From: Alkalispirillum mobile | GTDB taxonomy: Bacteria > Pseudomonadota > Gammaproteobacteria > Nitrococcales > Halorhodospiraceae | Direction: 5' to 3' | Length of the DNA: 64,000 bases | NCBI RefSeq assembly: GCF_003664325.1 | Contig: NZ_RCDA01000001.1 | Span: 372,001 to 436,000 of the forward strand | Shown: one piece after another, positions 17,968 through 32,418 of the stretch | How positions within the stretch are numbered: position 1 is the stretch's first letter | Layout: each line of letters begins with the position of its first letter | Position numbers and translations under genes: made by a program | Notes under the pieces: generated by a model | Database searches by the model: none | Seen by the model: only the letters and a program-made list of their open reading frames with translations | What the model was told of the DNA's origin: nothing

Positions 17968-18696
17968 TCAGGAGGGATCGGGCTGTGCTGCAGCGCAACG
18001 TATGATGTTGCGGGAGTAATCCTCGAGCCGACGGACCCGGCAGTCGTCGGTGACGCGGATATTCGGGTCGCGACCCCGGTTCTCCAGCCTCAACCGCTCC
18101 CAGTACTCATCGAAGTAGCGGTTGAACATCTCACCCCCGAGTGTGCCCACGGCATAAAGGGCGTCTTCCGACTCGTCATGCTCCAACAGCACCGCGGCCA
18201 GGGGCTGGTCCGCCGGTCCGGACAGCACATTGGCACCGGCGCAGGGGTCGTAGACGCTGTGCTCAGCGCAACAGGCAATTACCCCGGCCCCCGTGCCCAT
18301 GTCGGTGACCTCGGGTCGGTAACTGATATAACTCACGCTTGGGGTGGGGTGGGCCATGCGGTGCGCGCAAATTGCCGAATAGGCCACTAGCGTGCGGTCC
18401 GGCCCGACACCGCCCTGCCAGAGGTACGGCCGACCGTCCTTATCCAGGAGTTGTTGCGGTTGCATCGGCCGATCCAGCCGAAGCAGGAAACAGGGCGTCG
18501 CAATATAGGGGTAATGGAAGACGTAGTTGGCCTTGGACGCCAGGTCCGCGGCGTGGAGTGGAAAACCTTCCTCGTCCAGAAGACGGGCGCGGTCGTAGTG
18601 CCTCAGGGTGACCGGTCCGCTGACACCGGCGACACCGCCCGCAGCCATACAGCCGGCACCGAGGGCACAAGCCTGCATGAAGGTTCGTCTGCGCAT
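17968..18696 (-). CDS. Tat-exported Rieske [2Fe-2S] protein
   Basis: This is 242 residues. The N-terminus 'MRRRTFMQACALGAGCMAAGG' is a twin-arginine signal with a hydrophobic core. The Rieske cluster motifs are 'CAHRM' (C-x-H) and, downstream, 'CCAEHSVYDPCAG' (C-x-x-H), with an extra Cys pair that could form the usual disulfide. It is probably a periplasmic or membrane-anchored electron-transfer protein. The partner enzyme is not encoded nearby, so its role is open. A GGAGGG box precedes ATG 18694-18696. Confidence 0.82.
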   Translation of the reverse strand: MRRRTFMQACALGAGCMAAGGVAGVSGPVTLRHYDRARLLDEEGFPLHAADLASKANYVFHYPYIATPCFLLRLDRPMQPQQLLDKDGRPYLWQGGVGPDRTLVAYSAICAHRMAHPTPSVSYISYRPEVTDMGTGAGVIACCAEHSVYDPCAGANVLSGPADQPLAAVLLEHDESEDALYAVGTLGGEMFNRYFDEYWERLRLENRGRDPNIRVTDDCRVRRLEDYSRNIIRCAAAQPDPS

Positions 18697-18801: not shown

Positions 18802-19227
18802 TTACCGCCCTTCCAGCGGCACCCCGTCCTGGTACCGGGAACTACCGTCCTGATACACCTCATTCTTCCAGACCGGCGCCCGTTGCTTCAGGGTGTCGAT
18901 GGCAAACCGCGCCGCATCAAAGGCGTCGCCCCGATGGGCCGAGCGCACCACCACCAGCACGCTGTCCTCACCCACCTCCAGCTCGCCGATGCGGTGAATA
19001 ATCCGGCAGGACTGGATCGGAAAACGGGAGAGCGCCTCCCGCTCTATCTCCGCCAGCACCCGCTCGGCCAACGGCTTGTAGACGGTGTAGCTGATCGCTT
19101 TGACGTCGCGCCCTTCGTGGTGATTGCGCACGGTCCCCGAAAAGACCACCAATGCGCCGCTCTCCGGGTTCGCGGTCTCCTCCAACAGGGCATCCAGCGC
19201 CAGGGGTTTATCGCTTATTCTTTCCAT
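18802..19227 (-). CDS. moaE: Molybdopterin synthase catalytic subunit MoaE
   Basis: This is 141 residues. The conserved motifs are 'GALVVFSGTVRNHHEG', 'IIHRIGELEVGEDSVLVVV', 'SAHRGDAFDAARFAID' and 'LKQRAPVWKNE', with the catalytic lysines. MoaE with MoaD-thiocarboxylate converts cyclic pyranopterin phosphate to molybdopterin. moaD is not adjacent, so this is an isolated moaE. It would supply the Mo cofactor needed by the CO dehydrogenase encoded about 4 kb away, though nothing shows co-regulation. Confidence 0.97.
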   Translation of the reverse strand: MERISDKPLALDALLEETANPESGALVVFSGTVRNHHEGRDVKAISYTVYKPLAERVLAEIEREALSRFPIQSCRIIHRIGELEVGEDSVLVVVRSAHRGDAFDAARFAIDTLKQRAPVWKNEVYQDGSSRYQDGVPLEGR

Positions 19228-22010: not shown

Positions 22011-22116
22011 GTCCTCCCCCGGGTGCCCCCTTGATGTTTTCTAGTTTTCGGCCGGGAGTCTACCGTAATCATTCACCGGTCGTCCTGAGTCTAGGCAATT
22101 TCCCCAGGATTTGACT

Positions 22117-22896
22117 ATGATTCAGCATCACCCGGTTTCCCGGCAGGCATTTCGCTCATCGATGCAAAGCTTTGAACACAAACTTCAGCAGTTTGACCCG
22201 GGCATCATCTGGCTGGACACCACCAACCAGGTCACGGCGATGAACGCGGTGGCCATCCGCATTCTGGGCGTAAGGCCCGGTGACGTGCTCGGACAGGAAG
22301 TCCTGCAACTCCATCCAGAGAAGAGCCGGGGCAAAATCGCCTGGCTGCTGGAGTCCACCCATGAGGCGGACGGCTGCCCGGTGAAATCGCCGCCCCCCAT
22401 GACGATGATGATCAACATCCCCGACCGGGTGCTGCTGATTAAACTCTCCCGCATGTATGGGCAGGACGGCGGCCCCACGGGTGCCTGCCTGGTCTTCTAC
22501 GACCTCACCGAGGTGACCTCGACCGAGGTCGTCGAGGAGACCGCCCCGGCCCGCCCCAGGCAGCTGCTGAAACTGCCCGTATACAAGAATCAGCGCGTCA
22601 TGCTGCTCAACCTGAAAGAGGTCGTCCGGCTGCGCGCCGAAGGCCATTACACCGAGGTCTACAAAAACGGCGCCCCCTACCTCTGCAACCTGTCACTGGC
22701 GGACCTTGAAGGCCGACTGGACCCGGAGCGCTTCATGCGGGTCCACCGCTCCCACATGGTCAATCTCGACTTCGCCGCTGCGCTGGAACGGGACGGCGAT
22801 CAATACCAGTTGGTGCTGCAGGACGACCACGAGACCCGGGTACCGGTCAGCCGCGGCAATGCCCCCCGGGTCCGCGCCCTTTTCGGGCTGGGCTGA
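22117..22896 (+). CDS. rcoM: CO-sensing heme-PAS / LytTR transcription regulator, RcoM type
   Basis: This is 259 residues with an N-terminal PAS domain (about 20-130) and a C-terminal LytTR DNA-binding domain (about 150-255, 'VRLRAEGHYTEVY' and 'FMRVHRSHMVNLD'). RcoM proteins bind heme with a PAS His plus Cys (ferric) or Met (ferrous), and CO displaces the Met. Here His66, Cys87 and Met95/Met97 fall at almost the same spacing as His74, Cys94 and Met104 of Burkholderia RcoM. The gene sits directly upstream of coxM, as expected for an activator of CO oxidation. I chose ATG 22117 with an AGGA box; a TTG two codons earlier is possible. Confidence 0.85.
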   Translation: MIQHHPVSRQAFRSSMQSFEHKLQQFDPGIIWLDTTNQVTAMNAVAIRILGVRPGDVLGQEVLQLHPEKSRGKIAWLLESTHEADGCPVKSPPPMTMMINIPDRVLLIKLSRMYGQDGGPTGACLVFYDLTEVTSTEVVEETAPARPRQLLKLPVYKNQRVMLLNLKEVVRLRAEGHYTEVYKNGAPYLCNLSLADLEGRLDPERFMRVHRSHMVNLDFAAALERDGDQYQLVLQDDHETRVPVSRGNAPRVRALFGLG

Positions 22897-23105
22897 ATCC
22901 CCCCGGCGTCATTCCCGCAGCATATCCGCCGTTCAGGCGCCCATCCCGCCAGTGATGAAGTGGCACTTGCCCTCCCCGCCGCCCTGCCCTCTACTGAATC
23001 GCAAGTGAGGCGGTTTGCCGCACCGTCGGCCTGACCTCACCAGCCAGGAGGAGAGCAGCTCTGGTTTCCAGGCTGCACAAAACAACACCTGCAGAGGTGC
23101 CACAA
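22897..23105 (+). promoter_or_regulatory. Leader and presumed promoter of the cox cluster
   Basis: This 209-bp gap lies between rcoM and coxM. Near the start codon are two small inverted repeats: agagc/gctct (23052-23062) and cacct/aggtg (23086-23099). The second contains the coxM ribosome site AGGTG and could partly mask it. It is the expected place for RcoM binding, but I cannot name a specific operator by eye. Confidence 0.4.
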
Positions 23106-23972
23106 ATGATTCCGGGTAACTTCGAATATCACGCCGCCCGCGGCGTGGATGAGGCCTTGCAATTACTCGCCCGGTTCGGTGACGAGGGCAAGCTGCTGGC
23201 CGGCGGTCACAGCCTGCTGCCCATGATGAAACTGCGCTTTGCCGAACCGGCCCACCTGATCGACCTCAACCCGATAGAAGAGCTGCGCGGCGTACGCGAA
23301 GACGGCAACGATCTGCTCATCGGCACGATGACCACCGAGACCGCGCTGCAGCAATCGGACCTGGTCCAACGGCACTGTCCCGTGCTGCAGGAGGTGGTGG
23401 CGCTTATCGCCGACCCCCAGGTCCGCAACCGCGGGACCATCGGCGGGGACGCCCTGCACGGGGACCCCGGCAATGATCACCCGGCGGTACTGATGGCCCT
23501 GGACGCGCGTTTCGTGATCCGTGGGCCCAACGGCGAGCGCGAGTCCCCGGCCAACGGCTTCTACCTCGGCCCCTACCTGACCCAACTTGGTGACAACGAG
23601 CTGGCCACGGCCATCCGCATTCCCAAGTGCCCGCCCGGCCAGGGCTACGCCTACTGCAAGATGAAGCGCAAGACCGGTGACTACGCTACCGCGGCCGCCT
23701 GCGTCCTGCTGACCCTGGCGGACGGCAAAGTGCAGTCCGCGCGCATCACGCTCACCAACGTTGGCCCCACGGCACTGCGCGCCGAGGACGCGGAGGAGCT
23801 GCTCGTCGGCCAGGCGCTGGACGACGGCCTGATCGAGCAGGCGGCCCAGGCGGCCATGAGCGTTTGCGAGCCTGCCGAGGACTTGCGCGGCAGCCCTGAT
23901 TACAAGACCCATATCGCCGGCGAGATGACCCGCCGGGCCATCCGCCTCGCGTTGCAGCGCGCCCGCGGCTAA
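23106..23972 (+). CDS. coxM: Carbon monoxide dehydrogenase medium (FAD) subunit CoxM
   Basis: This 288-residue flavoprotein subunit of the aerobic Mo/Cu CO dehydrogenase receives electrons from CoxS and passes them to quinone. The FAD-binding motifs '[15 protein letters not shown]' (about residues 30-44) and '[21 protein letters not shown]' (about 108-128) are in the expected places, with Asp in the second where Asn is common. The C-terminal CO_deh_flav_C domain is complete. ATG 23106 follows AGAGGTG; an in-frame GTG lies 9 bases earlier. coxS starts 14 bp downstream. Confidence 0.96.
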
Positions 23973-23986
23973 AGGGAGTCTCCACC

Positions 23987-24484
23987 ATGGCAAAACATGC
24001 GATCACCCTGCACATCAACGGGCAGGCCCACGACGTGGCTGTTGATTCCCGTGAGTTGCTGATCCACACCCTGCGGGAAAAGCTGCGCCTCACGGGGGCC
24101 CATATTGGCTGCGAGACCTCCCACTGCGGTGCCTGCACGGTCGACATCGACGGCGTCTCTGTGAAGTCCTGCACCATCCTCGCCGTGCAATGCGATGGCG
24201 CCGAGGTTCAGACGGTGGAGGGCCTGGCCACCCCCGAGGGCCTGCACGCGGTGCAGGAGGGATTCATGCAGGAGCACGGTCTGCAGTGCGGGTTCTGCAC
24301 CCCCGGGATGCTGATGCGCGCCTACCGCTTTTTGCAGGAGAACCCGAACCCGACGGAGGAGGAGATCCGCTACGGCATGGCGGGCAATCTCTGCCGATGC
24401 ACCGGCTACAACAACATCGTCAAGGCCGTTCAGTACGCAGCGCGCAAGCTGCAGGATCAGGCCAAGGGCGGCCAGCCGGCCTGA
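23987..24484 (+). CDS. coxS: Carbon monoxide dehydrogenase small (iron-sulfur) subunit CoxS
   Basis: This is 165 residues carrying two [2Fe-2S] clusters. The N-terminal plant-ferredoxin-like domain has '[12 protein letters not shown]' and a later Cys in 'VKSCTIL'. The C-terminal helical domain has 'CGFCTPGM' and '[13 protein letters not shown]'. It relays electrons from the Mo/Cu site in CoxL to FAD in CoxM. The order M-S-L matches known form I cox operons. Confidence 0.97.
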
Positions 24485-24545: not shown

Positions 24546-27500
24546 ATGGCAACCCCCGCAGAAGAGCTGGAACGCAGTGAAAAGCTGGGCGGCATCGGCT
24601 GCTCCCGGAAACGCAAGGAGGACCCGCGCTTCATCCAGGGCAAGGGCCACTACGTGGACGACATCCAGCTGCCCGGCATGCTGGTCGGCGACTTCGTCCG
24701 CAGCCCCCATGCCCACGCCCGCATCAAGGCGATCCACAAGGATAAGGCGCTGGCCCACCCCGGCGTGCACGCCGTGCTCACCGCCGAGGACCTGGCGCCG
24801 CTGAACCTGCACTGGATGCCCACCCTGGCCGGTGACAAGCAGATGGTGCTGGCCGACGGCAAGGTCTGCTTCCAGAACCAGGAAGTGGCCATGGTCATCG
24901 CCGATGACCGCTACATCGCCGCCGACGCCACTGAACTGGTGGAGGTGGAATACGAACCCCTGGAGGTGCTGGTCGACCCCCACCAGGCGATGGACGACGA
25001 CGCCCCTGTTATCCGTGACGACCTGGAGGGCCAGACCGAGGGCTTCCACAGCAAGCGCGTACACCATAACCACATCTTTACCTGGGATGTGGGCGACAAG
25101 GACGCCACCGACAAGGTCTTTGATGAGGCCGAGGTCACTGTCACCGAGAAGATGCTCTACCAGCGGGTCCACCCTTGCCCGCTGGAGACCTGCGGCTGTG
25201 TCGCCGACTTTGACAAGGTGAAGGGCGAGCTCACCGTCCACATCACCTCCCAGGCCCCCCACGTGGTGCGGACGGTCTTCTCCCAGCTCTCCGGTATCGC
25301 CGAGAGCAAGGTGCATATCAACGCCCCGGACATCGGCGGCGGTTTCGGCAACAAGGTGGGAATCTACCCGGGCTACGTGGTGGCCACGGTGGCCTCCATC
25401 GTGCTCGGCCGCCCGGTCAAGTGGGTGGAGGACCGGATCGAGAACCTCTCCACCACCGCCTTTGCCCGCGACTACCACATGACCGGCGAGCTGGCCGCCA
25501 CCAGCGATGGCAAGATCCTCGGCCTGCGCACCCACGTGCTGGCGGATCACGGCGCCTTCGACGCCTGTGCCGACCCGGCGAAATGGCCCGCCGGCTTCTT
25601 CAACATCTGCACCGGCAGCTACGACATCAAGACCGCCTACGCGCGGGTGGACGGTGTCTACACCAACAAGTGCCCTGGTGGCGTCGCCTACCGTTGCTCG
25701 TTCCGGGTCACCGAGGCGTGCTACCTGATCGAGCGGATGATCGACGTGCTGGCCCAGAAGCTGGGCATGGACAAGGCGGAGATCCGCTTCAAGAACTTCA
25801 TCCGCCCCGAACAGTTCCCCTACCACTCCGCCCTGGGCTGGGAGTATGACAGCGGCGAGTACGCCCGCGCCCTCCAGAAGGTGCTGGACGCCTGCGATTA
25901 CGAGGGCCTGCGGCGCGAGCAGAAGGAAAAACGGGAACGCGGGGAGATCATGGGCATCGGCCTGTGCACCTTCACCGAAATCGTTGGCGCCGGGCCCAGT
26001 CGCAAGTGCGACATTCTCGGCGTCGGCATGTTCGACAGCGCCGAGATCCGGGTCCACCCCACGGGCAGTGTCATCGCCCGCATGGGCACCAAGACCCAGG
26101 GCCAGGCCCACGAGACCACCTACGCCCAGATCATCGCCACCGAGCTCGGCCTGAACTCCGACGACATCCAGATCGAAGAGGGCAACACCGACACCGCGCC
26201 CTACGGGCTCGGCACCTACGGCTCCCGCAGCACGCCGGTGGGCGGTGCCGCCACTGCCCGCGCCGCCCGCAAGATCCGGGACAAGGCGCGCAAGATCGCC
26301 GCCCACCTGATGGAGGTGAGCGAGGAGGACCTGGACTGGACCGGCGAGGGCTTCCAGGTCAAGGGCGTGCCCGATCAGAGCACCAGCATGCAGCAGATCG
26401 CCTGGGCGGCCTACAACAACACTCCGGAGGGCATGGAGCCGGGCCTGGAGGCGGTGGAGTACTACGACCCGCCGAACATGACCTACCCCTTCGGCGCCTA
26501 CCTGTGCGTGGTGGACATCGACCGCTACACCGGCGAGACCCGCGTGCGCCGCTTTTACGCGCTGGACGACTGCGGCACCCGCATCAACCCCATGGTCATC
26601 GAGGGGCAGGTCCACGGCGGGCTCACCGAGGCCTTTGCAGTGGCCATGGGCCAGGAGCTGCCCTACGACGGTGCCGGCAACATCCAGGGCGCCTCGCTGA
26701 TGGACTACTTCCTGCCCACCATGGTGGAGAGCCCGCACTGGGAGACGGACCACACGGTCACGCCCTCGCCCCACCACCCCATCGGGGCCAAAGGGGTCGG
26801 CGAGTCCTCCCACGTGGGCGGCATCCCCTGCTTCTCCAACGCCATCAACGACGCCCTGGCGCAGTTTGGCACCACCCACGTGGACATGCCGCACAACGCC
26901 TACCGCGTCTGGCAGACCCTGCACGAACTGAAGCTCGACCGCCACCCCGAGGCGGACAAGGTGACGCCCTTCAAGCCCCGGCCCCGCAAAGAGAAGCCCA
27001 AGCCCGCCGCGGAGCGACCGGCGCCGGCCGCGGGCGAGAAGAAGGCGGCCGCCAAGGGCATGGAGGTCCGGCTGGAACGGGATTACGGTCTGGACGTGCC
27101 CGCCGATGCCGCCTGGACGCTCATGCAGGATATCCGCGAGGTAGCGGCCTGCATGCCGGGGGCCTCGATCGTGGAACAGACCGGCGAGACCACCTACGTC
27201 GGCGAGATGCGCCTCAAGGTGGGCCCGGTCAGCTCCGCCTTCAAGGGCGACATCGAAGTGCTCGGGTTGGATGCCGAACGCCAGGAGTTGCGCATGCGCG
27301 GCGAGGGGGGGGACACCAAGGGCAGCTCCAGCGCCAGCATGACCCTGCAGGCCCGCATCGTCGACGAGGGCGCCGAGCGCTGCCGCCTGGAGGGGGTCTG
27401 CACCATCGAGCTCAAGGGCAAGATGGCCAGCTTTGGCGGCCGGATGCTGGAGAACATCTCCGATCGCCTGCTCTCCCAGTTCGTCGCCAACTTCGAGAAC

Positions 27501-27632
27501 CGGGTGGCGGCCCAGGGTGAGGGGGCCCAGGCGGAGGCCGCACGCCGCAAGCTGGAGGAAGGGCCGAAGGAGCTGAATGGCCTGGCTCTACTCTGGCAGA
27601 TGATCAAGAGCTGGTTCGGGGGCCGGCGCTGA
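24546..27632 (+). CDS. coxL: CoxL-CoxG fusion: form I CO dehydrogenase large subunit joined to a CoxG (SRPBCC) domain
   Basis: This is 1028 residues; CoxL alone is about 800. Residues 1-808 are the molybdopterin-binding catalytic subunit, with the form I active-site loop AYRCSFR (Cys384, ligand of the Mo-S-Cu centre) and the catalytic Glu753 in GVGES. Residues about 809-838 form a Pro/Lys/Ala-rich linker. Residues 839-1028 are a CoxG-type SRPBCC domain ('AAWTLMQDIREVAACMPGAS' start, 'GGRMLENISDRLLSQFVANF' helix), ending in a hydrophobic/basic tail 'WQMIKSWFGGRR'. CoxG is normally a separate protein reported to bind membranes and carry quinone to the enzyme. No separate coxG is visible in the cluster. 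The CDS is one uninterrupted frame, and coxD follows 2 bp later. Confidence 0.97.
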   Translation: MATPAEELERSEKLGGIGCSRKRKEDPRFIQGKGHYVDDIQLPGMLVGDFVRSPHAHARIKAIHKDKALAHPGVHAVLTAEDLAPLNLHWMPTLAGDKQMVLADGKVCFQNQEVAMVIADDRYIAADATELVEVEYEPLEVLVDPHQAMDDDAPVIRDDLEGQTEGFHSKRVHHNHIFTWDVGDKDATDKVFDEAEVTVTEKMLYQRVHPCPLETCGCVADFDKVKGELTVHITSQAPHVVRTVFSQLSGIAESKVHINAPDIGGGFGNKVGIYPGYVVATVASIVLGRPVKWVEDRIENLSTTAFARDYHMTGELAATSDGKILGLRTHVLADHGAFDACADPAKWPAGFFNICTGSYDIKTAYARVDGVYTNKCPGGVAYRCSFRVTEACYLIERMIDVLAQKLGMDKAEIRFKNFIRPEQFPYHSALGWEYDSGEYARALQKVLDACDYEGLRREQKEKRERGEIMGIGLCTFTEIVGAGPSRKCDILGVGMFDSAEIRVHPTGSVIARMGTKTQGQAHETTYAQIIATELGLNSDDIQIEEGNTDTAPYGLGTYGSRSTPVGGAATARAARKIRDKARKIAAHLMEVSEEDLDWTGEGFQVKGVPDQSTSMQQIAWAAYNNTPEGMEPGLEAVEYYDPPNMTYPFGAYLCVVDIDRYTGETRVRRFYALDDCGTRINPMVIEGQVHGGLTEAFAVAMGQELPYDGAGNIQGASLMDYFLPTMVESPHWETDHTVTPSPHHPIGAKGVGESSHVGGIPCFSNAINDALAQFGTTHVDMPHNAYRVWQTLHELKLDRHPEADKVTPFKPRPRKEKPKPAAERPAPAAGEKKAAAKGMEVRLERDYGLDVPADAAWTLMQDIREVAACMPGASIVEQTGETTYVGEMRLKVGPVSSAFKGDIEVLGLDAERQELRMRGEGGDTKGSSSASMTLQARIVDEGAERCRLEGVCTIELKGKMASFGGRMLENISDRLLSQFVANFENRVAAQGEGAQAEAARRKLEEGPKELNGLALLWQMIKSWFGGRR

Positions 27633-27634
27633 TC

Positions 27635-28516
27635 ATGATGAGTGCGGAGGCCTACCGCGAGGCCCTGGCCGGGGTGGGCTACGTCGCCGACCCCGGCCTC
27701 GCGGCCACGCTCAGCCTGGCCGATCGACTGGGCCGCCCCCTGCTCCTCGAGGGGGAGGCCGGGGTCGGTAAGACGGAAGTCGCCAAGGCCCTTTCCCTGG
27801 TCCACTGCTGCCGCCTGATCCGGCTGCAGTGCTACGAGGGGCTCGATGCCCAATCCGCCGTCTACGAGTGGGACTATCAGCGCCAGCTGCTGGCCATCCG
27901 GTTGCTGGAGGCGGAGGGCCGCGCCGGCGAGGACGCCGAGCAGGCCATCTTCTCCGAACGCTACCTGCTCCGTCGCCCTCTGCTGGAGGCCATCAGCCAA
28001 CCGGAACCCCCGGTACTGCTGGTGGACGAGATCGACCGGGCCGACGAGGAGTTCGAGGCCTACCTGCTGGAGGTTCTGGCCGAGTTCCAGGTGACCGTCC
28101 CGGAACTGGGCACCCTGCAGGCCAGCAGCCGGCCACGGGTCATCCTGACCTCCAACGCGACACGGGAATTGTCGGACGCCCTCCGCCGGCGCTGCCTCTA
28201 CCACTACCTGGATTTCCCCGGCCCGGCGCGGGAGATCGCGATCATCCGGGCCCGGCTGCCCGACCTGCCTGAGGCCCTGGCCCGCCAGGCGGTGGACTTC
28301 GTCCATCGGTTGCGGCGCGAGGGGTTGCGCAAGGTGCCCGGGGTGGCAGAAACGCTGGACTGGGCGGCGGCCCTCGCAGGCCTCGGCGTGGAGCGGCTGG
28401 ACCAAGACCCCGAGGTGCTCCTGGAGACACTGGCCTGCCTGATCAAGACCCGCCAGGACCGGGACAGCCTCACCCGGGAACGGCTGGAGGCACTGGCCGC
28501 CGGAGGTGCGGGATGA
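27635..28516 (+). CDS. coxD: CoxD, MoxR-type AAA+ ATPase for CO dehydrogenase maturation
   Basis: This is 293 residues. Walker A is 'GEAGVGKTE' (about residues 40-48), Walker B is 'VLLVDEIDRADEEFEAYLLE' (about 128-147), and a sensor 'ILTSNATRELSDALRRRC' follows. CoxD of other CO oxidisers is needed to build the Cu-S part of the Mo/Cu site. It starts 2 bp after coxL and overlaps coxE as ATGA, so the three are co-translated. Confidence 0.95.
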   Translation: MMSAEAYREALAGVGYVADPGLAATLSLADRLGRPLLLEGEAGVGKTEVAKALSLVHCCRLIRLQCYEGLDAQSAVYEWDYQRQLLAIRLLEAEGRAGEDAEQAIFSERYLLRRPLLEAISQPEPPVLLVDEIDRADEEFEAYLLEVLAEFQVTVPELGTLQASSRPRVILTSNATRELSDALRRRCLYHYLDFPGPAREIAIIRARLPDLPEALARQAVDFVHRLRREGLRKVPGVAETLDWAAALAGLGVERLDQDPEVLLETLACLIKTRQDRDSLTRERLEALAAGGAG

Positions 28517-29646
28517 GCCTGCCCGCGGCGGAACAGCTGCTGGCCTTCACCCGCGGCCTCCGCGCTCGCGGGTGGCCCGTCGGCCTGCGCGAGCAACAGG
28601 ACATCCTCCAGGTTGCCGAAGAGGCCGGGCTGGAGGACCCCCGTCGATTGGCGGCTGCCCTGCGTCCGATCTGCTGCGGCACCCGGACCCAGTGGGAGCA
28701 CTTCGACGACCTCTTCGAGCGCTGGTGGCGACCGCGGCGCGGCGTCCGCAGTCGCGCCACCGGGCCGGGCGGTGGCCTGCACCCCACCCCCGGACAGGCC
28801 GGCGATGAGGGTGAGCCCCAGCAACCCGACCGCGCCGGGGAGGGCAGCGCGGCGGATGCCGACCCCTTTGGCGCCCGCGCCGGTGCCAGTGCCCGGGAAA
28901 GCCTGGCACGGACGGACTTCCGCCACCTGCAGCATCCGGAGGAGTCCCGCGCGCTGGATGCCCTGATGGACCGGATGGCCCGTCGCTGGCAACGCCGCTT
29001 CCGCCGCCGCTGGCGCGCCATGAGCAAGGGCCGACGGCTCGCCCCGCGGGCCACACTTCGCCGCAGCCTCAGCCGCGGCGGCATCCCGATGGACCCGGTG
29101 TGGCTCCAGCCGAGACGGGTGCCGCCCCGGCTGATCCTGCTGGTGGATGCCAGCCGCTCCATGGAGCTCTACAGCTACCGCTTCCTGCGCTTTGCGGGTA
29201 GCGCCCTGTCGGTCTTCCCCCGCAGCGAGGCCTTCATTTTTCACACCCAGTTGGTCCGCATTACCGATGCGCTGACCGCCGAGAGCCCGGAGCGTCTGCG
29301 CGAGAAACTGGCCCTGCTCTCTACCGGTTGGTCCGGCGGGACCCGCATCGGCGCCTGCCTGACCGACTTCAACCGCCAGTATGGCGAGGCGGTGCGGCGC
29401 CGCAGTGTCGTGCTGCTGTTCAGCGACGGCCTGGATACCGGTGACCCGGAGGCACTCACGGACGCACTGGGCGAGCTGCGGGCCCGGGCCGGGCGTCTGG
29501 TCTGGCTGAACCCCCTGATGGGGCGTAGCGGCTACGCCCCCGATGCGCGGGGCATGCGCAGCGCCCTGCCCTATCTGGACCGGCTGGCACCGGCCCACAC
29601 GCTGGACAGCCTGCTGGCCCTGGAACACGAATTGATTCGCCTCTAA
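28513..29646 (+). CDS. coxE: CoxE, von Willebrand factor A domain maturation protein
   Basis: This is 377 residues. The N-terminal helical region is followed by an Arg/Gly-rich acidic linker (about 75-130) and a VWA domain (about 205-377). The MIDAS motif is DASRS, the second motif lies in 'WSGGTRIGACL' and the third in 'LFSDGLDTGDPE'. MoxR ATPases work with VWA proteins, so CoxE is probably the CoxD partner in inserting copper or sulfur into CoxL. The start overlaps the coxD stop. Confidence 0.95.
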   Translation: MSLPAAEQLLAFTRGLRARGWPVGLREQQDILQVAEEAGLEDPRRLAAALRPICCGTRTQWEHFDDLFERWWRPRRGVRSRATGPGGGLHPTPGQAGDEGEPQQPDRAGEGSAADADPFGARAGASARESLARTDFRHLQHPEESRALDALMDRMARRWQRRFRRRWRAMSKGRRLAPRATLRRSLSRGGIPMDPVWLQPRRVPPRLILLVDASRSMELYSYRFLRFAGSALSVFPRSEAFIFHTQLVRITDALTAESPERLREKLALLSTGWSGGTRIGACLTDFNRQYGEAVRRRSVVLLFSDGLDTGDPEALTDALGELRARAGRLVWLNPLMGRSGYAPDARGMRSALPYLDRLAPAHTLDSLLALEHELIRL

Positions 29647-29665: not shown

Positions 29666-30544
29666 ATGGAACATGACAATGCCGTACTGGAAAAGCTGAT
29701 GCAGTTAACCGGCACCGGCACCCCCTGCGCGCTGGTCACCGTGGTCCGCGCTGTCTCCCCCACCTCCGCCAAGCCCGGCGAGAAGGCAGTGGTGACCGCT
29801 GATGGCCGGATACACGGCTGGATCGGCGGCGGCTGCGCCCAGCCCGCGGTGCTGCGCACGGTGCGGGAAGCGGTGGAGGACGGCGTCTCGCGACTGATCC
29901 GGGTCACGCCGCGCAAGAACGCCGAGCCCGAAGTCGAGGGCATCACTGACTTCAACATGGCCTGCCACAGCGGCGGCACGCTCGATATCTTCGTCGATCC
30001 CATGCTGCCCAGCCCGGTGGTGAATGTTTACGGGGCATCGCCGGTTGCCCGCCACCTGGTGGCCCTGGCCGCCCGGATGGACTTCCGCGTGCAGGTGCTG
30101 GCACCGGACACCGAGGCCGGTGACTTCCCCGAGGCCGCGCGCCACCACGACGCCTTCAGCACCCCGGAGGACTGGCCGGCCCCGCGGTGGGCCGTGGTGG
30201 CCACCCAGGGGCGCGGTGACCGCCCCGCACTGGAGGCGGCCCTGGCCACCCAAGCCAATCCCGTGGCCTTCGTGGCCAGCGAGCGCAAGTGCGGGAAGCT
30301 CGCCGACGAATTACGCGGTCGTGGCCTGTGTGACGGCCACCTGTCGCGGATCCGCGCGCCGGCCGGTATCGAGATCAGCGCCCGAACCCCGGCAGAGATC
30401 GCCCTCTCGGTCACCGCGCAGCTGGTGCAGTGGCGGCGCAGCGCCGACGGGTCATCGGCACTTGCCCCGGCCACGCCGGCGCTGGATAACGCGGAGCGGC
30501 CGAAAGAACCTGAAACCCACAGTTGCTGCGGAGGTAACGCATGA
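29666..30544 (+). CDS. coxF: CoxF, XdhC/CoxI-family Mo-cofactor maturation protein
   Basis: This is 292 residues. The N-terminal XdhC_CoxI domain has 'AVSPTSAKPGEKAVVTADGRIHGWIGGGCAQP'-type sequence (about 29-60). It is followed by a Rossmann-like domain ('VVNVYGASPVARHLVALAARMDF') and a Cys-containing tail ending 'THSCCGGNA'. XdhC proteins bind and sulfurate Mo-cofactor before insertion. The stop overlaps mocA. A second XdhC-family gene follows mocA. Confidence 0.9.
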   Translation: MEHDNAVLEKLMQLTGTGTPCALVTVVRAVSPTSAKPGEKAVVTADGRIHGWIGGGCAQPAVLRTVREAVEDGVSRLIRVTPRKNAEPEVEGITDFNMACHSGGTLDIFVDPMLPSPVVNVYGASPVARHLVALAARMDFRVQVLAPDTEAGDFPEAARHHDAFSTPEDWPAPRWAVVATQGRGDRPALEAALATQANPVAFVASERKCGKLADELRGRGLCDGHLSRIRAPAGIEISARTPAEIALSVTAQLVQWRRSADGSSALAPATPALDNAERPKEPETHSCCGGNA

Positions 30545-31143
30545 GCGGAGGCATGGCAGCGGTTTTGCTGGCGGCCGGGGAGTCCCGACGCATGGGCGCC
30601 ACCAATAAACTGGCCCTTGAGGTGGCAGGCGAGCCCCTGGTCTGCCGGACCGCCCGGGTGTTGCTCGAGGGCGGCGTGGACGACCTGCTGGTGGTGCTCG
30701 GGCACGAGGCCCAGGTCATCCTGCCCTTGCTGCACCACCTCCCGGTACGCACCACCATCAACCTGCGCTACACCGAGGGCCAGATGAGTTCGGTGCACTG
30801 TGGGCTGCAGGCGCTGGGGGGCCACCCCGAGGGCATCCTTATCGCCCTGGCCGACCAGCCCACGCTGCAGCCCCACGACGTGGCACGCCTGATCCGCTGC
30901 TACCGGGAGCGAGGCCACTACGGCATCGTCGTACCCACCCACCAGGGGCAACGGGGCAACCCCATCGCCCTCGATCCGCTGCAGCGGGACGAGATCCTCG
31001 GCAGTGGCAGCAACATCGGCTGCCGACGGCTGATCCAGCGCAATCCGGAGCGGGTGAAGGCGGTGGAGATGGCCAGCCCCAACTTCGTGATCGATATGGA
31101 CACTCCGGAAGACCGGGCGCTGCTGCTGGAGGCCGCCTCATGA
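30541..31143 (+). CDS. mocA: Molybdenum cofactor cytidylyltransferase, MocA family
   Basis: This is a 200-residue nucleotidyltransferase fold with 'AVLLAAGESRRMGATNKLAL' at the N-terminus, 'IALADQPTL' metal-binding Asp near residue 102 and 'NFVIDMDTPED' near the C-terminus. MocA makes MCD (cytidine dinucleotide) from Mo-molybdopterin, the cofactor form used by CoxL. It overlaps both neighbouring XdhC-family genes by ATGA. Confidence 0.92.
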   Translation: MSGGMAAVLLAAGESRRMGATNKLALEVAGEPLVCRTARVLLEGGVDDLLVVLGHEAQVILPLLHHLPVRTTINLRYTEGQMSSVHCGLQALGGHPEGILIALADQPTLQPHDVARLIRCYRERGHYGIVVPTHQGQRGNPIALDPLQRDEILGSGSNIGCRRLIQRNPERVKAVEMASPNFVIDMDTPEDRALLLEAAS

Positions 31144-31955
31144 GCGAACGGGATGTACTCGACGTCCTGGTGGAATTGCGGGATCGGGGCGCACCCCACG
31201 CCCTGGCCACCGTGATCGAGGTCGAGGGCTCGGTATCGGCGCAGACTGGCTCAAAGGCGGTGTTCGACGGCGAGGGGCGGCTGCTGGCCGGCTGGGTCGG
31301 CGGCGGCTGCGCCGATGCCACCACCGCCCAGGCCGCCCGCCAGAGTCTGGAGACCGGCGAGGGGCAGGTCATCCTCGTTGACATGGACGATGAGATCCTG
31401 GGCACCGGGGTGCCCTGCGGCGGCCGGATGCGCCTCTGGGTGGAGCCGGCCCTGCCCCGACCGACCCTCTGGCTGCTGGGTGCCGGGCGGCTCAGCGAGA
31501 CCCTGTGCCGAATTGCCACGGCCACCGGCTTCCAGGTGGTGGTCAATGACCCGCGGGCCACCCGGGAACGCTTCCCGGACGCGCGCACCATCCAGACCGA
31601 TGACATGGACTACCGGGGCCTGCGCCTGCGCCCGGGCGACTTCGTCGTGGTAGCCACCCAGCACAAGGGCGATCACCACGCGATTGCCAGCGCCCTGGCC
31701 GGCGGTGCGGAGTACATCGCCTTGGTGGCGAGCCGCAAGCGCGCCGCGCTGGTGCTGGAGGGCCTGCGTGAGGACGGCCACGACGAGGCACGGCTGGCGG
31801 CCGTGGTGGCGCCGGCCGGCCTGGACCTGGGTGGACGTGAGCCGGAGGAGATCGCCCTGGCCATCCTGGCGGAGATCGTCACCTTGCGCCGCGGCGGCAG
31901 CGGACGCCGGCTGCGCGACGTCAAGCCCTTGCCGACGCCCGGCGCCCGGAACTGA
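31140..31955 (+). CDS. Second XdhC/CoxI-family protein
   Basis: This is 271 residues with the same two-domain layout as CoxF. 'VEGSVSAQTGSKAVFDGEGRLLAGWVGGGCADATT' (about 28-62) is followed by a Rossmann part 'LWLLGAGRLSETLCRIATATGF' and 'VVVATQHKGDHHAIASAL'. It probably corresponds to CoxI. Two diverged copies flanking mocA suggest distinct steps in Mo-cofactor handling. The start overlaps mocA; the SufU-like gene follows after 16 bp. Confidence 0.88.
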   Translation: MSERDVLDVLVELRDRGAPHALATVIEVEGSVSAQTGSKAVFDGEGRLLAGWVGGGCADATTAQAARQSLETGEGQVILVDMDDEILGTGVPCGGRMRLWVEPALPRPTLWLLGAGRLSETLCRIATATGFQVVVNDPRATRERFPDARTIQTDDMDYRGLRLRPGDFVVVATQHKGDHHAIASALAGGAEYIALVASRKRAALVLEGLREDGHDEARLAAVVAPAGLDLGGREPEEIALAILAEIVTLRRGGSGRRLRDVKPLPTPGARN

Positions 31956-31971
31956 AAAGAGGGTCACGCTC

Positions 31972-32418
31972 GTGGAGCAGATCTACCGGAACATCATCCT
32001 GGACCATTACCGTCACCCCCGCCACTTCGGCCGGGTCACGGGCTATCCGCTGCAGGGGCAAGCCCATAACCGGCTTTGCGGCGACGAGTTGCTCCTGGGT
32101 ATCAGCATTGAAGATGGCCGCGTCGCGACGATGGGCTTTCACGGACGCGGTTGCGCGGTCTGTATGGCGGCCGCTTCGCTCGCATGCGACCACCTGCCCG
32201 GCACCCCCAGCGAAGGGCTCACGCAGTGGGTGCGCCAACTTGCGGCGGCGTTAGCCGCCGCCGACCAACCGTTGCCCTGGCCGCTCGACCCGCTGACGCC
32301 CCTTCGCGACTACCCGAGCCGGCACCGGTGCATACTGCTGGTGGCGGAGGCACTGGAGGACGCCCTCACGCACGGCCCCCTGCGGCAGGGCCAGGGGGCG
32401 GCACTGGAAGCCCCCTGA
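31972..32418 (+). CDS. SufU/IscU-like iron-sulfur scaffold protein
   Basis: This is 148 residues from GTG 31972 with a GAGGG box upstream. The N-terminus 'IYRNIILDHYRHPRHFGRV' is typical of SufU/NifU. The three ligand cysteines are present in 'NRLCGDELLL' (with the conserved Asp), 'GRGCAVCMAAASL' and 'RHRCILLVAEAL'. It is probably an Fe-S scaffold or sulfur-acceptor protein. Standing as the last gene of the cox cluster without suf or isc partners is unusual; a role in CoxS clusters or in the Mo/Cu site is inference. A terminator follows. Confidence 0.85.
   Translation: MEQIYRNIILDHYRHPRHFGRVTGYPLQGQAHNRLCGDELLLGISIEDGRVATMGFHGRGCAVCMAAASLACDHLPGTPSEGLTQWVRQLAAALAAADQPLPWPLDPLTPLRDYPSRHRCILLVAEALEDALTHGPLRQGQGAALEAP

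Follow-up and report, generated by a model that had tools for sequence, protein, structure and literature searches.

The route by which electrons travel from the Mo/Cu CO dehydrogenase to the respiratory chain has long been an open question, with CoxG as the proposed link. Known CoxLs are about 800-809 residues long, among them the large subunits of the solved CoxMSL enzymes 1FFU (CutL of Hydrogenophaga pseudoflava) and 1N5W (CoxL of Oligotropha carboxidovorans). Mutation of coxG in O. carboxidovorans leaves the cells with complete CO dehydrogenase (CODH), none of it particulate (membrane-bound), and slows growth on CO from one doubling in 21 h to one in 149 h; the authors propose that CoxG recruits the enzyme to the membrane (PMC4240915). 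In Sulfolobus, CoxG-like proteins anchor the dehydrogenase G3PDH at the membrane, an enzyme that reduces quinone without them (PMC11962113). As cited in a marine survey, Kropp 2025 describes CoxG as a menaquinone-binding membrane protein through which electrons enter the quinone pool (PMC13240472).

CoxG is usually a separate polypeptide; it is so in Mycobacterium smegmatis and in Sulfolobus, where its partner is an unrelated FAD enzyme. Unfused form I clusters of gamma- and betaproteobacteria (L058, L067, Paraburkholderia pBN2 and a scaffold of the Olavius Gamma 3 symbiont) share the gene order coxL-G-D-E with the locus described here, and their CoxGs belong to the same clade, C-terminal helix included, but coxG is a separate gene that begins 23-169 nt past coxL. 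The Alkalispirillum mobile enzyme resembles the Hydrogenophaga and Oligotropha enzymes over CoxL residues 3-796, in its AYRCSFR loop, in its coxM and coxS and in its coxD/E/F-type maturation genes, but its large subunit has some 230 residues more, and these carry CoxG.

The cox cluster and its fused gene

The window, a stretch of 64,000 nucleotides, lies on a 1.75 Mb contig of a genome (G000) that is 99.7% complete, and Pfam annotation of its open reading frames revealed a complete form I cox cluster, all on the + strand. The genes for the FAD-binding medium subunit (coxM, 23097-23972; FAD_binding_5, CO_deh_flav_C) and the [2Fe-2S] small subunit (coxS, 23987-24484; Fer2, Fer2_2) precede the fused gene coxL::coxG (24546-27632), which encodes 1028 aa matched by TIGR02416 and PF06240. 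Downstream are coxD, encoding a MoxR-type AAA ATPase of active-site maturation (27635-28516; AAA_5 and synteny), coxE, encoding a VWA protein (28513-29646; VWA_CoxE), and two XdhC/CoxI-family genes (each with XdhC_C and XdhC_CoxI), the first coxF-like (29666-30544) and the second at 31140-31955, with a gene for a MobA-like nucleotidyltransferase between them (30541-31143; NTP_transf_3). Directly upstream of coxM, also on the + strand, is a gene for a protein with PAS and LytTR domains (22111-22896), which we call RcoM-like from its architecture and position and which is probably a CO-responsive activator of the cluster; orthologues occupy the equivalent position in L023, L024 and L058. A scan for promoters and terminators gave no signal above chance.

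Directly after the second XdhC/CoxI-family gene is a gene for a SufU-like Fe-S scaffold (31966-32418), with a TIGR01994 score just under the cut-off; since similar genes lie close to other cox clusters (L023, L058, L067, L068 and L047), it may belong to this one. A few kb upstream of the cluster, on the - strand, are genes for a Rieske/SoxL2-like protein (17968-18696) and a moaE-like molybdopterin synthase component (18802-19227).

The CoxL portion comprises residues 1-798 (24546-26939, +). The TIGR02416 equivalog model for the aerobic CODH large subunit matched residues 25-790 with 1439.9 bits against a cut-off of 991.15, and residues 3-796 align with the closest solved relatives, 1ffu_B and 1n5w_B. 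The AYxCSFR loop with its Cu-ligating Cys is present as AYRCSFR, aligned with that of 1ffu_B, as is the GVGES motif. These features, together with the adjoining coxM, coxS and CoxD/E/F-type maturation genes, identify the portion by sequence as a form I Mo/Cu CO dehydrogenase large subunit. The original prediction of a complete form I CoxL in one uninterrupted frame with CoxG is thus borne out: all 1028 codons are open. A whole-genome search returned exactly one CoxL and one CoxG-family match, both within this frame, in agreement with the earlier statement that the cluster has no separate coxG; the 1:1 ratio of the two proteins that was also proposed is a direct consequence of the fusion.

The linker, the CoxG domain and its tail

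Homology to CoxL stops at about residue 796-799 and gives way to a flexible Pro/Lys/Ala-rich linker of about 40 residues (799-838; 26940-27059, +) that is predicted, from low pLDDT, to be disordered. Across the orthologues described below, the linker is 35-41 residues long (from residue 798 to the start of CoxG), holds most of the indels and has dN/dS values of 0.15-1.42. A Pro/Lys-rich linker had been predicted at residues 809-838; the linker is there, and its start is better placed at about residue 799.

A domain search of the C-terminal part matched CoxG; failure to match would, by the original prediction, have been a refutation. PF06240 (COXG) covered residues 851-987 with 64.7 bits against a gathering cut-off of 22.2 (E 9.7e-18), and the last 220 aa matched chain D of 8UDS, the CoxG of Mycobacterium smegmatis (E 6.9e-23). 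An AF2 model of residues 809-1028, built on an alignment of 14 rows, had a mean pLDDT of 83, mostly above 90 in the CoxG domain, with the element order of an SRPBCC fold and a disordered linker. Compared with the PDB by Foldseek, the modelled CoxG found 8UDS at rank 1 (TM 0.92 by target, rmsd 1.5 A, 31% identity), followed at lower ranks by more COXG-family structures, and on the strength of this model the added domain has the M. smegmatis CoxG fold. The pocket domain, an SRPBCC (helix-grip) domain at residues 839-989 (27060-27512, +), is also defined by alignment with separate CoxGs. Its dN/dS values among orthologues are 0.06-0.52, lower than the range given above for the linker, and by this comparison of coding sequences the domain is under purifying selection.

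Residues 839-1028 had been described as a full CoxG-type domain. This holds as to family, but in the model the SRPBCC fold itself occupies only about residues 838-989 and is followed by two helices, a short charged one (994-1005) and a C-terminal amphipathic one (1012-1025; 27579-27620, +). The latter, NGLALLWQMIKSWF, was modelled with moderate to low confidence and has a mean Fauchere-Pliska hydrophobicity of about 0.75; separate CoxGs in the same clade have a counterpart of it, for example ELNGLAFAWSVIVGFFKSLFG, and all fusions retain it. The PDB title of 8UDS reads "CoxG from M. smegmatis, minus lipid anchoring C-terminus", and we take the modelled helix to correspond to this lipid anchor and to be a putative membrane anchor. 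Because pocket domain and C-terminal tail were both found, both halves of a working CoxG appear to be present. A model of the full-length protein had a pLDDT of 48, too low for placing the CoxG domain on the enzyme.

Distribution and origin of the fusion

Orthologous fusions with the same gene order were found in five further genomes of the class, so that six are known from four families. Three of the five are from the same taxonomic order as the source genome (G019, G020 and G037), among them two closed, single-contig genomes (G020 and G037) and an Aquisalimonas MAG (G019, contig SKYZ01000372.1); the remaining two (G190 and G287) represent one genus of another order. All four carriers of form I CoxL found within the order have the fusion, as does 1 of 12 genomes of the source family, the source genome itself. 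Identity to the protein in the window is 87-88% in CoxL and 66-72% in CoxG. The six fused proteins form one clade with 100/100 support in maximum-likelihood trees of both CoxL and CoxG, and a second tree of 47 CoxG domains grouped them in the same way. Judged from these trees, the fusion has a single origin and is conserved; its carriers are a handful of halophiles and bacteria related to them.

An error of assembly or a frameshift that merged two genes can be dismissed with near certainty. Nothing speaks in its favour, and the recurrence of orthologous fusions in other genomes, two of them closed, excludes it; in addition, the contig is 1.75 Mb long and third-position GC is alike in CoxL, linker and CoxG (0.92, 0.93 and 0.91).

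As a query, the C-terminal sequence from the window alone had no match in the genome contigs, and a four-row alignment found 13 loci. Two largely overlapping samples of Gammaproteobacteria, one of 370, whose matches were examined further, and one of 369, contained form I-type CoxG as a fusion in G000, G190 and G287 and as a separate protein in G054, G132, G156, G203, G243, G329, G418 and G845; G243, G329 and G845 were assigned from the length of their open frames. Of all strong matches in a sample of 398 genomes from the phylum, the window alone had an open frame as long as about 1000 residues. In the loci from G287 and G190 (L055 and L056), the fused cluster is preceded, a few kb upstream, by another cox cluster, which is form II-like and has an unfused coxG of its own.

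Unfused form I clusters suggest how the fusion arose. In L043-L047, L058, L062, L067-L069 and L076, coxG begins 23-169 nt past the coxL stop, and in most unfused form I clusters it directly precedes coxD. (In one of these otherwise form I clusters, CoxL carries AYRCSLR instead of AYRCSFR; L062:5171-7759.) Because coxG lies so close behind coxL in these relatives, fusion probably came about by read-through of the gap. The ancestor would have had the order coxM-coxS-coxL-coxG-coxD, the stop codon of coxL would have been lost and the short gap, translated, would have become the flexible linker of about 35-41 residues. Loss of the coxL stop with translation of the gap is the simplest history that the compared sequences suggest, and the linker is probably the former intergenic region.

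The position of Met839 is that of the start Met in most separate CoxGs, which raises the question of whether CoxG is also, or mainly, made as a separate protein, by internal initiation at what would be the old CoxG start codon or by cleavage of a linker that is both disordered and rich in Lys and Arg. We regard this as improbable. Met839 is kept in four of the six fusions, but it is Thr in G190 and G287, and the ATG at 27060 has no well-spaced ribosome-binding site upstream, two observations that make it unlikely that CoxG is generally produced separately; the purifying selection that acts on the domain and the absence of stop codons from six lineages likewise favour continued fusion.

CoxG is also covalently joined to subunits of other enzymes of the xanthine oxidase family. 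CoxS-CoxG fusions occur with form II-like enzymes in Alpha- and Gammaproteobacteria (L039, 8659-9858; L041, 8367-9602; L048-L052, L054 and L063), and in the CoxG tree they form one clade apart from the form I fusion. Form II-like large subunits carry CoxG at the C-terminus in L025:8492-11503 and L026:8706-11966 and at the N-terminus in L057:5110-8172, the last a weak match on a long branch. A Pseudohalocynthiibacter match that resembled a form II fusion was rejected as two adjacent genes. These fusions differ from the one in the window in the subunit or enzyme form joined (no AYxCSFR) and in the CoxG clade, and they represent independent events; in the tree of 47 domains, CoxG must have switched between the separate and the fused state three times or more. 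CoxG has thus been tethered repeatedly, to CoxS as well as CoxL-like subunits, and the form I fusion is less singular than it would be if it stood alone.

The same comparison bears on whether the fusion brings any advantage. The stop codon could have been lost neutrally, leaving a fused enzyme that works like the separate pair, with no gain from the tether. A single origin fits drift, and coxL and coxG were neighbours already; retention across four families and the independent fusion of CoxG to other subunits of the enzyme family argue the other way. We consider neutral loss rather unlikely. The alternatives discussed here are in part compatible with each other, and this one is compatible with the explanation that we prefer, denying only the benefit of the tether.

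A proposed role in membrane docking and quinone handling

The best reading of the fused CoxG, from sequence comparison, is that of a tethered module for membrane docking and quinone handling. Each CoxL would bear an SRPBCC quinone-pocket domain together with the membrane-binding C-terminal helix of CoxG; docked at the inner membrane by the tether, the enzyme would receive quinone drawn from the bilayer by the CoxG domain, for reduction near the CoxM flavin. M. smegmatis CoxG, which has the same SRPBCC fold and family and a membrane-anchoring segment after the domain, uses menaquinone. In A. mobile the quinone is probably ubiquinone, because UbiG had two matches above the cut-off (G000:C2:131654-132310 and G000:C1:1097334-1098020) and MenD, the menaquinone gene searched for, had none in the genome. 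With RuBisCO also encoded in the genome, the bacterium may be able to grow autotrophically on CO.

The docking, binding and transfer steps are inferred, and the main alternative is that the fused CoxG serves as a membrane anchor only, with CoxM reducing quinone directly. This is possible because the Sulfolobus dehydrogenase reduces quinone without its CoxG-like anchors (PMC11962113). It also fits the coxG mutants of O. carboxidovorans, which lack particulate CODH and still use CO, slowly (PMC4240915), and the retention of the C-terminal helix in all fusions. An anchor helix alone, however, needs neither a conserved SRPBCC pocket domain nor purifying selection on it, and the M. smegmatis CoxG is reported, in the survey's citation of Kropp 2025, to bind menaquinone and to pass electrons (PMC13240472). 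We judge a purely anchoring role to be rather unlikely. The tethered quinone shuttle of the original prediction accordingly has a mixed standing: the 8UDS-like fold, the purifying selection and the retained helix are compatible with it, a plain anchor role also has published support, and the sequence itself fits both anchoring and quinone delivery.

Taken as a whole, an account in which a natural CoxL-CoxG fusion with a gap-derived linker provides tethered docking and quinone presentation seems to us somewhat probable. A stronger version, in which the enzyme is a self-contained CO-to-quinone oxidoreductase whose CoxG, swinging on the linker, shuttles ubiquinone from the bilayer to the flavin of the CoxM in its own complex and back, is a tentative proposal that may well be wrong. 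If true, it would turn a soluble molybdoenzyme into a membrane-docked respiratory complex with the quinone carrier inside the catalytic subunit.

The fusion joins two proteins known to work together and is not a new kind of system. In the open-access literature, searched by titles and abstracts, no CoxL-CoxG or CoxS-CoxG fusion was described. The marine survey used a coxG profile from proteins of 150-450 aa and leaves fusions unmentioned (PMC13240472); surveys of stand-alone coxG may miss or misclassify genomes with the fusion. A system in one polypeptide makes anchoring and quinone delivery separable through truncation and point mutation. Recurrent fusions of CoxG to different subunits suggest selection for direct tethering, and a conserved natural fusion is independent genetic evidence for CoxG acting at the enzyme itself.
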